From: Alienimonas californiensis
Lineage (GTDB): Bacteria > Planctomycetota > Planctomycetia > Planctomycetales > Planctomycetaceae
Reading direction: 5' to 3'
DNA: 64,000 nucleotides
NCBI RefSeq assembly: GCF_007743815.1
Contig: NZ_CP036265.1
Coordinates: forward strand, 124,001 to 188,000
Shown here piece by piece: positions 51,974-54,442 of this stretch. The notes below the pieces were generated by a model. The model saw nothing but the letters and a program-made list of their open reading frames with translations, had not been told where the DNA came from and made no database searches. The first letter of the stretch is position 1. Each line of letters starts with the position of its first letter. The position numbers were made by a program, and so were the translations under genes.

Positions 51974-53353
51974 TCAGCGCGCCGCCGTGCCGGCCAGCGT
52001 CGTGAGCAGCCAGATGCCCACGCCGTAGTAGAGGATCACCCCGGTCACGTCCATCACCGCGGTGATGAGGGGGGTGCTCATCAGGGCCGGGTCGGCGCCC
52101 ATCTTTTTGCTCGCCAGCGGCAACAGGGAGCCGCAGACGGTGCCGATCACGACCACTACGAACACCGTGCCGGCGACCATCAGGCTCTCGTTGGAGCCCA
52201 ACTCGAACCACAGATACCCGCTGAGATAGCCGATCAGCGCCAGCAGGAAGCCCAACGTGCCGCCGACCAGCAGTTCACGGGCGGCCAGCCTCCACGGGCC
52301 GGTCCCCTGCTCCCCCAAGGCGATCGCCCGGATGATCAGCGCCGCCGACTGGCTGCCGGCGTTGCCGCCGGCGGCCAACACCAGCGGGAGGAACAGCACC
52401 AGCCAGACGTGCGCCTCGCTGACTTCCTCGAACCGCTGCAACACCTGCGCGGTCGCCAGGGCGACCAGCGAGAGGAACATCAGCCACTTGCCGCGCTTCC
52501 ACGCCAGTTCCAGCACGCCGGTTTCGGCGTAGCTGTCGGCCAACGGCTCGACGCCGCCCATCCGCAGCACGTCCTCCTCCGCCTCCTGCCGGACGACGTC
52601 CATCGCGTCGTCGTGGGTGACGATGCCGACCAGTCGGTTCGCCTCGTCGACCACCGGCAGGGCGAGCAGGTCGTACCGCATCACCTGGGCGGCGACCTTC
52701 TCCTGGTCGTCGTCCACGCGGGCGCTGATCACGTCCCGCCGCATCAACTCGCCGACCGTGCGCTCCGGCCGGGCCAGCACGAGGTCCCGCAGCGAGACGA
52801 ACCCGTCCAGCCGCCGGTCCGGGCCGAGGACGTAGATGTAGTACAGCGTCTCGGCGTCCGGGGCCTGCTTGCGGAGGGCGGTGAGGGCCTCGGCGACGGT
52901 CGCCTGCTCCGTGAGGCTGGCGTACTCCGTGGTCATGATCGACCCGGCGGACTCCTCCGGGTAGGCCAGCAGCCGGCGGACGTCCGCCCGGTCCGCCTGG
53001 GCCATCAGCGGGAGCAGACTCTCCACCCGCACCGGATCGAGCCGGGAGAGCAGGTCCGCCCGGTCGTCGGAGCTCATCTCCCCGACGAGCTTGCTGAGCC
53101 GCTCCTTGCCGATCGCCTCGACCAGCTCCACCTGCCGGTGCAGGGAGAGGAACTCGAAGATCTCCACCTGCCGCGGGAGCGCACAGTGCGAGAGCACCCG
53201 CCAGACGGTTTCGTCCTCCAGTTCGGCCAGCAACTCGGCCAACGCGGCGGGGTGCAGCTCCTCGCAGAACGCCTTGAGCCCGTCCGCGTCACCCTCTTCC
53301 AGCATCAGGCGCAGATCCGGCCCGAGCAGGTAGTTGATGACGGCGGTGGGCAT
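51974..53353 (-). CDS. mgtE: Magnesium transporter MgtE
   Basis: The 459-residue protein matches MgtE. The N-terminal helical domain is present (LHPAALAELLAELEDETVWR, EFLSLHRQVELVEAIGKERL, LSKLVGEMSSDDRADLLSRL). Two CBS domains follow (EYASLTEQATVAEALTALRK, RDVISARVDDDQEKVAAQVM). The membrane part has five helices, starting with WLVLFLPLVLAAGGNAGSQS, which holds the conserved GGNAGSQS motif, and later ALMSTPLITAVMDVTGVILY. It forms a dimeric Mg2+ channel gated by intracellular magnesium. No M-box riboswitch was recognised upstream, where the rpsI terminator lies. Confidence 0.95.
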   Translation of the reverse strand: MPTAVINYLLGPDLRLMLEEGDADGLKAFCEELHPAALAELLAELEDETVWRVLSHCALPRQVEIFEFLSLHRQVELVEAIGKERLSKLVGEMSSDDRADLLSRLDPVRVESLLPLMAQADRADVRRLLAYPEESAGSIMTTEYASLTEQATVAEALTALRKQAPDAETLYYIYVLGPDRRLDGFVSLRDLVLARPERTVGELMRRDVISARVDDDQEKVAAQVMRYDLLALPVVDEANRLVGIVTHDDAMDVVRQEAEEDVLRMGGVEPLADSYAETGVLELAWKRGKWLMFLSLVALATAQVLQRFEEVSEAHVWLVLFLPLVLAAGGNAGSQSAALIIRAIALGEQGTGPWRLAARELLVGGTLGFLLALIGYLSGYLWFELGSNESLMVAGTVFVVVVIGTVCGSLLPLASKKMGADPALMSTPLITAVMDVTGVILYYGVGIWLLTTLAGTAAR

Positions 53354-53427: not shown

Positions 53428-54348
53428 TCACCGCTTGGAGAACTGGAAGCTCTTCCGGGCCTTCTTGCGGCCGTACTTCTTCCGTTCGACGGCCCGCTCG
53501 TCGCGGGTGAGGTAGCCGCCGTGGTGCAGCGTGCCGTGCAGGTTCGGGTCCTTGGCCTGCAACGCCCGGGCGATGCCGAGCACGATGGCGCCGGCCTGGC
53601 CGGTGCTGCCGCCGCCTTCGACGCGAACCCACACGTCGACGTTGCCGGCCATCTCCGTCCGCTCGAGCGGGGCGCGAATCGACTCCACGTCGCGGACGAA
53701 GCTGAAGTAGTCGTCCAGGTCGCGGCCGTTCACGCTGAACTGGCCGGTGCCGTCGGAGATGCGGACGCGGGCCACGCTGGTCTTGCGACGGCCGGTGCCC
53801 ATCGCGGTGCCGAAGCGGTCGATCGAGCCGCGGATCATGCTCTCCGGCGGCGGGGCGATGTCCTCGGGGGCGCGGCCGCCGCCGATGGTCAGACCCATAT
53901 CCTCGGCGTAGCTCTCGCCGGTCGCATCGGGGCCCATCTCGTCCGGGGAGGCGGCGCCGACCTCGGCGCCGGTGGTCGGCTCGTCGCCCACCGGCTCAGC
54001 GGCCTGATCGGCGGCGGCGAGATCGCCCTGCGGAACGTCCACCTGAATGTCGGCGGCGCCCGCGGTGGCGCCGGCGTCGACGTTGGCGGAATCGACTAGC
54101 GGAGCGGTCTGACCGCTCTCGGTGCCGCCGGAGTTGCCGGTCGCGGCATCAGAAGCGCCGCGCGGGCCGGAGGTCCCGTCGGACGCAACCTTCGTCTCGT
54201 CGACCGGGTTGTTCTCGTCGGTCCCGGGCACGTCCGCGGCGGTCGTCTCGCTGCTCGGGCCCTTCGGCACGCCGTCCATCGGCGCCGGGGACGCCGAGGG
54301 GGTCTGCGAGGGGGCGTCCGGATCGGGCGTGTCGGCGTCGTTCGGCAT
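53428..54348 (-). CDS. rpsI: 30S ribosomal protein S9 with a 183-residue acidic N-terminal extension
   Basis: The C-terminal 123 residues (from GTGRRKTSVARVRISDGTGQ to KKARKSFQFSKR) are a normal S9, including the basic tail that reaches the P-site tRNA. They are preceded by about 183 residues that are low in complexity and rich in aspartate, glutamate, alanine and proline (for example DADTPDPDAPSQTPSASP). The reading frame is open through this whole stretch and starts at ATG 54348, 94 bases after rplM, as expected for an rplM-rpsI operon. An internal start near MIRGS would give an S9 of about 137 residues, but it would leave roughly 600 bases without a gene. A strong terminator follows. Confidence 0.9.
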   Translation of the reverse strand: MPNDADTPDPDAPSQTPSASPAPMDGVPKGPSSETTAADVPGTDENNPVDETKVASDGTSGPRGASDAATGNSGGTESGQTAPLVDSANVDAGATAGAADIQVDVPQGDLAAADQAAEPVGDEPTTGAEVGAASPDEMGPDATGESYAEDMGLTIGGGRAPEDIAPPPESMIRGSIDRFGTAMGTGRRKTSVARVRISDGTGQFSVNGRDLDDYFSFVRDVESIRAPLERTEMAGNVDVWVRVEGGGSTGQAGAIVLGIARALQAKDPNLHGTLHHGGYLTRDERAVERKKYGRKKARKSFQFSKR

Positions 54349-54442
54349 GAGCGAGGGTCCCGCGCGGCGGGCGAAGGTCAGCGGGGGAGAAGCGAGGAGA
54401 AGCGGGACCGGGGAGCGTCAGCCCCCGAAGCGGCCGGGAGAT

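Follow-up and report, generated by a model that had tools for sequence, protein, structure and literature searches.

Ribosomal protein S9 (uS9) touches the P-site tRNA and is described as a contact hub in the moving head of the 30S subunit (PMC11711686). Its N terminus is known to be extended in some bacteria: in Cutibacterium acnes, uS9 is reported to carry a 46-residue N-terminal extension lying above the mRNA exit site, the first 39 residues of which are disordered, and the corresponding extension in M. smegmatis is given as 23 aa shorter (PMC10085706). A different ribosomal protein, L27, is reported in Firmicutes to be made with an N-terminal extension of ~10 residues that is cut off by Prp (PMC9405229). 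Here, we describe the rpsI gene of Alienimonas californiensis, found in a window of 64,000 nucleotides (the whole stretch of DNA that was analyzed), whose S9 product has a long and strongly acidic N-terminal extension, and we follow this extension across the planctomycete family, its class and its phylum.

The rpsI locus and its coding N-terminal extension

The rpsI gene lies on the minus strand of the window (53428..54348), where the frame from 54348 down to 53428 runs uninterrupted for 306 codons from an ATG to the stop, and encodes a 306-aa protein. This protein is matched by PF00380 at aa 186-306 (E 1.3e-43, 148.8 bits for a cut-off of 22.5) and by NF001099 at aa 182-306 (167.2 bits, cut-off 112), and it is the single PF00380 match in the 5.48-Mb single-contig assembly. 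The S9 models therefore cover just the last 121-125 residues, in agreement with the sequence-only reading, which had placed a standard S9 at the C-terminal end. This basic core (aa 182-306, with the stop codon; 53428..53805, minus strand) finishes in KSFQFSKR, that is, in the SKR tail ending in Arg expected of bacterial S9. The order of rplM and rpsI is also as expected of bacterial S9. Upstream lies rplM, which encodes ribosomal protein L13 (54443..54943, minus strand; 166 aa counted from the ATG chosen; TIGR01066, 154.7 bits), and downstream lies mgtE, encoding a magnesium transporter (51974..53353, minus strand; TIGR00400, 366.5 bits).

The N-terminal extension (aa 1-181; 53806..54348, minus strand) contains 22 D, 12 E, 2 K and 4 R, which gives it a net charge of -28. 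Its pI is 4.05; that of the S9 core is 10.5 and that of the whole protein 4.56. Since NF001099 puts the start of the core at aa 182 and PF00380 at aa 186, the extension measures 181-185 aa, so the long acidic extension first noticed in the sequence is confirmed with a slight correction to the 183 aa originally given. Pfam and NCBIfam return S9 models only, which speaks against a fusion of S9 with a known domain, and the extension alone matches no PDB sequence at E<=10. A tandem-repeat origin was rejected as well, the only array being one of 26 bases with 2.2 copies of a 12-mer. In an AlphaFold model of S9, built with three sequences as input (mean pLDDT 39.5), the distal part of the extension is without secondary structure, at low confidence.

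Could the start simply have been called wrongly, as the sequence-only reading had allowed? Translation would then begin near aa 150-182, the upstream frame being open by chance at high G+C. The region is indeed G+C-rich, with a GC of 0.91 at codon position 3 of the extension, and rpsI contains internal ATGs at -44, -31 and -11. The coding signature contradicts this alternative. When the extension is compared with that of Alienimonas chondri (L032), the closest named relative in our searches (78% in the best segment, 88% over the alignment), dN/dS is 0.23 (164 of the 181 codons being alignable), and the core gives 0.25; reading the aligned extension DNA in the two alternative frames gives 1.7 and 3.0, codons turned into stops having been dropped. 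The differences fall 12/15/46 on codon positions 1/2/3. The signature spans the entire extension, dN/dS being 0.17 for codons 1-50, 0.26 for aa 1-140 and, at its lowest, 0.12 for aa 141-181, a region of 41 codons only that runs from a conserved motif (see below) to the core.

The signature also starts at the called ATG. Codons 1-23 differ 1/2/8 from A. chondri by codon position and codons 24-49 differ 2/2/5; the 48 bases directly upstream of the ATG differ 6/6/8. Coding therefore most likely begins at 54348, and no in-frame ATG, GTG or TTG occurs upstream of this position within the open frame. The spacer between the rplM stop and the rpsI start (54349..54442, minus strand), which lacks an SD-like 4-mer directly ahead of the start, measures 94 bases and fits the long start, just as the sequence-only reading had argued, and three members of the family have no internal start codon of any kind, as detailed below. 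We therefore rejected a wrong start, which is highly improbable: the extension is real coding sequence with a long start, and bears a coding signature over its whole length.

A family-wide acidic extension with a conserved module

To survey the planctomycete family, 120 genomes were drawn evenly from a larger group. An S9 match was found in 114 of them. Among the six genomes without a match, two (G111 and G118) are listed as 99% complete. Two of the 114 genomes (G056 and G075), in which a contig end truncates the S9 match, were left out, and 116 loci from the remaining 112 were examined; removing four second copies, one identical protein and five loci cut at contig ends left 106 distinct complete S9 proteins. 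Each extension was taken to start at the farthest upstream ATG that still follows the rplM stop, overlap with rplM being forbidden; some starts may thus lie too far upstream, and in one member (L065) an earlier ATG was barred by the no-overlap rule.

In all 106 proteins the extension is negatively charged (net charge -2 to -39) and measures 42-187 aa (median 74.5); the core behind it has a net charge of +8 to +19. The length of the tail varies more than fourfold, the longest three extensions being those of L087 (187 aa), L002 (181 aa) and L003 (177 aa), and the A. californiensis extension, at 181 aa, belongs among them. The negative charge of the extension grows with its length (r -0.88), net charge for the whole protein has a median of +1 and ranges from -25 to +12, and S9 is net acidic in 47 of the 106 members. 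Between extension and core charge there is a weak trend (Spearman 0.19, p 0.056), of a sign opposite to compensation. The interval between the rplM stop and the ATG (median 78 bases, 13-297, never negative by rule) shows no clear dependence on extension length (Spearman 0.14, p 0.15), and the distance from rplM to the core climbs with extension length with a slope of 3.4, which is partly built in because this distance contains the extension. Between residue 15 and the core, 73 of the 106 genes have no ATG, and three (L017, L082 and L115) have no ATG, GTG or TTG.

The acidic S9 extension is a trait of the whole planctomycete family, not an oddity of one genome. Absence of the extension from close relatives, which would have spoken for a wrong start, was looked for, and close relatives carry it. 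The extension had also been thought unusual, which needs qualifying on two counts, as it is shared by the whole family and as a shorter one has already been published for C. acnes uS9 (PMC10085706). A practical consequence is that gene starts set by trimming to the standard length of S9 would be wrong across the whole planctomycete family.

These extensions share a common layout, with a hypervariable acidic tail followed by a conserved module of ~35-40 residues near the core. In A. californiensis, the distal low-complexity tail spans aa 1-146 (53911..54348, minus strand). Across the family, the extension minus its last 38 residues consists of 28% D+E, 1.1% K+R and 52% A/P/S/T/G and is almost without aromatics, and simple repeats are seen in some members (L006 and L018). 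The module displays, in this order, an [E/G]-L-x-[LI]-G motif, a variable linker and, ~20 residues further along than the motif, an IRGK-[IVL]-D-x-x-G block, which runs directly into the core's first strand. In its strict form, xLx[LIF][GS], the motif is present in 99 of the 106 proteins at -28 to -35 from the core, compared with 4.0 on average and at most 9 in shuffles (n=200), and is absent in seven. A relaxed form is found in 102, with the consensus P-[EG]-L-[TEDN]-[LI]-G-S. The motif of A. californiensis, G-L-T-I-G (aa 152-156; 53881..53895, minus strand), is located at -30 and conforms to the strict pattern. As for the core-adjacent block, G-8 and G-2 are invariant in the 106 proteins, R-9 occurs in 101, D-5 in 99 and K or R at -7 in 99. 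In A. californiensis, this block reads I-R-G-S-I-D-R-F-G-T-A-M (aa 172-183; 53800..53835, minus strand; family pattern [VI]RGK[IVL]D[RK]FGxAx), with S replacing K at -7 as in two of the 106. The module is also present in the five loci that are cut at contig ends, and conclusions about it are independent of the rule used for choosing the ATG.

A 42-position profile of the module, made from 16 members hand-picked from the 106, matched S9 in 29 of 30 family genomes and in none of 88 other genomes of the class (E<=1e-3). In a sample of the phylum, for which up to 25 first-look candidates were scored per genome, it matched all 17 family genomes and none of 277 others (E<=0.01). Three genomes (G000, G018 and G039) contributed profile rows in both samples, so the independent counts are 26 of 27 and 14 of 14. 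The one family genome missed, G057, has a divergent version of the module, as seen in L059. No second protein with the module was found. The seven further matches had E values of 0.0018 to 0.083 (limit 0.1; one in G036, the other six outside the family), none of them beside the family S9s, and none appeared at E<=0.01 in the phylum sample among the matches listed. Searched against PDB sequences, the module profile matched no S9 chain.

Outside the family, we fetched 78 S9 loci, a subset of the S9s found, in which five genomes appear twice. None of the 78 has the RGK block. Before the core, 38 have just 6-14 residues and 27 have at least 16 according to the ATG rule; in the remaining 13 there is no ATG in frame and the start was left unassigned. 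One family of the same class, f5, resembles the planctomycete family in that 10 of its 12 loci fetched have an acidic extension (33-55 aa, net -3 to -11, with an MSTD or MSTAD start), but it lacks both the LxLG motif and the RGK block; its S9 (L191-L199) is possibly a forerunner of the trait. Extensions without the module also occur in L022 (49 aa, net -5) and, in a more distant family of the phylum, in L136 (37 aa, net -7), the latter implying that S9 acquired or kept such acidic extensions in other parts of the phylum too. Judged by these profile searches, the module appears to be unique to the planctomycete family as far as the sampled genomes go, whereas the acidic start of S9 is not.

A separate feature was seen in family f3 (L028-L030 and L207-L209), in which the S9 core is split by an Ala/Pro/Lys-rich insertion of ~60 residues before an SG[YF]LTRDARMKERKK segment. 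The sequences of the insertion were read in L207-L209, and 16 of 25 f3 genomes have two or more separate PF00380 matches. This insertion is a second, different enlargement of S9 within the class.

A putative acidic arm on the 30S head and its alternatives

The sequence-only reading had suggested that an acidic tail could serve in assembly chaperoning, localization or ribosome hibernation. We tentatively propose that the extension forms an acidic arm that is tethered to the 30S head on its mRNA exit side and anchored there through a docking motif. The nearly fixed distance of the motif from the core (28-35 residues) suggests that it binds a partner, the distal part is taken for a disordered arm on account of its variability and composition, and placement at the mRNA exit side follows the position published for the N terminus of C. 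acnes uS9 (PMC10085706). In such an arrangement, the core-adjacent block would pack against the 30S head, perhaps like the similar residues in mitochondrial S9, and the LxLG motif would dock either on an adjacent surface of the head or on some bound factor. The tail itself would remain disordered and stick out from the head over the mRNA exit site; its negative charge could there tune the approach of mRNA 5' ends and of basic proteins. Until assembly, the tail may in addition cancel part of the positive charge of the S9 core. Counting against such an arm are the acidic extensions without a module outside the family, the seven members lacking the strict motif and the failure of G057 to match the profile; in addition, an electrostatic role would be weak for the shortest tails (42 aa, net -2). 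In a bolder version, which we regard as quite unlikely, the LxLG-RGK module would serve, in this family specifically, as a dedicated site on the 30S head at which a factor of translation or assembly, or else a neighboring ribosomal protein, docks, and the acidic tail would gate the mRNA exit site, acting as a ribosome-borne initiation regulator that makes S9 net acidic in those 47 of the 106 members.

Eukaryotic ribosomal proteins are neutralized before assembly by dedicated acidic chaperones, and the S9 tail might be a built-in chaperone, neutralizing in cis the basic core and its C-terminal tail until S9 is assembled. The constancy of sign, negative for every extension and positive for every core, would suit this role, as would the growth of charge with length and a whole-protein median close to neutrality at +1. 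However, whole-protein charge is spread from -25 to +12, more basic cores do not come with more acidic tails (the Spearman trend has the wrong sign), and 38 of the 78 loci outside the family have just 6-14 residues before the core. Neither does it explain the LxLG motif, whose conservation at a nearly fixed distance is not expected of a tail that purely neutralizes charge, and a chaperone in cis seems unlikely. The same motif, being short and conserved within a variable region, resembles a possible processing site, and either it or the RGK block could be the recognition site of a pro-peptide that is removed during assembly, for which the processing of L27 by Prp in Firmicutes offers a precedent (PMC9405229). 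We consider such removal distinctly unlikely, since purifying selection extends into the distal tail (dN/dS 0.17 for codons 1-50) and the L27 cleavage motif, LQ[FL]F'A, is absent on reading from the A. californiensis extension.

The extension might instead have grown neutrally, as a disordered tail that is tolerated, produced by slippage and drift, with the core-adjacent residues alone mattering. The wide range of lengths and the simple repeats in some members fit neutral growth, and so does the presence of low-complexity tails on other ribosomal proteins. In the A. californiensis genome, where ten ribosomal proteins were compared for tails (S3 as a 28-aa piece only), S17, L15 and L17 have C-terminal stretches of low complexity beyond their models: ~64 aa in S17 (rpsQ, L190:1364-1774), where the tail is acidic and occurs in both Alienimonas genomes, ~75 aa in L15 (rplO, L190:5691-6347) and ~71 aa in L17 (rplQ, L190:11338-12060). 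These allow a partly neutral origin, and in two of 13 family genomes searched (G007 and G010) the S17 frames are too short for the S17 tail. Set against this are the acidic sign kept in 106 of 106 extensions with just 1.1% K+R in the distal tail, a dN/dS of 0.26 for aa 1-140, the retention of the motif, and the A. californiensis extension itself, which holds just a weak 26-base tandem repeat; neutral growth is an improbable account. Ribosomal protein tails are tolerated in A. californiensis, and keeping across the family is shown for that of S9, the others having been surveyed less widely. L17 appears to contain an internal insertion as well, located before aa 106.

Several other candidates for a link with the S9 tail were tried and discarded. 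The acidic S17 tail is not a companion, being matched at full length only in the two Alienimonas of 21 genomes, the other 19 matches ending at residues 77-118. An absence of bS21 was rejected as a link, as bS21 is present. A special link between the tail and non-SD initiation is unsupported. SD-like signals precede 9 of the 106 family S9 starts, compared with 11.4 in shuffles, which is no enrichment, and the published figures disagree, Planctomycetes being placed among the phyla with few SD genes in one report (PMC5397173), whereas in Table 1 of another SD is found on 48% of mRNAs in the class Planctomycetia and on 47% in Gammaproteobacteria (PMC10783764). A search of the A. californiensis genome for 16S rRNA with RF00177 gave no match, the same search being positive in just 9 of 14 controls. 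The tethered acidic arm remains the reading we tentatively prefer, and a highly conserved protein such as S9 bearing, family-wide, a long acidic arm with a signature provides a lead on ribosome assembly or mRNA handling.

Comparison with known S9 and L27 extensions

The 60 of 113 PDB matches listed include no planctomycete ribosome structure, and none came up in the literature listed. Among these PDB matches are S9 chains of 173, 151 and 150 aa (8crx, 5v93 and 32nj, which we take to be from C. acnes, M. tuberculosis and M. smegmatis, respectively) and several long mitochondrial S9s. The core-adjacent block aligns with two mitochondrial chains, 6xyw and 9evs, presumably both plant mitochondrial S9. 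It resembles alphaproteobacterial and mitochondrial S9 in the pattern x-D-x-x-G-x-A-x-x-T-G-x-R-K just before the core, which reads KLDAQGRAYATGKRK in Azospirillum and QVDETGRAYGTGRRK in the mitochondrial protein (6xyw). Of the K-x-D-x-x-G-x-A pattern, A. californiensis has the D, G and A but S for K, a position at which 99 of the 106 family members have K or R. In Azospirillum S9, the one alphaproteobacterium compared, the 41 residues before GKRK contain neither an LxLG motif nor a long acidic tail, and mitochondrial S9 is long, yet the A. californiensis tail does not align with it. We also noted that S9 is matched in four Azospirillum plasmid records (H24-H27, L188), with an rplM-rpsI pair shown for one of them, and in 12 Clostridioides plasmid records.

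In the literature searched, which omits most subscription journals, no description of the planctomycete S9 extension was found among the matches listed. In PMC7203096, neither "uS9" nor "protein S9" occurs in 300,000 of the 769,434 characters, and passages of PMC13245402, PMC7560712, PMC7438116, PMC10931766, PMC10618245 and PMC11764897 hold nothing on the N terminus of planctomycete S9.

Compared with the long L27 of Firmicutes, the planctomycete extension is likewise a lineage-specific addition, bearing a short conserved motif, to a ribosomal protein, but the protein and the motif are different, and that of L27 is reported to have ~10 residues and to be removed by a protease (PMC9405229). There is also a likeness to C. 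acnes uS9, whose extension is N-terminal too and is described as mostly disordered in that ribosome (PMC10085706). The planctomycete extension reaches up to 187 aa and is strongly acidic. A disordered extension of S9 is in itself already known, the planctomycete one differing from it in its greater maximum length and, as far as the PDB sequences searched show, in its module.
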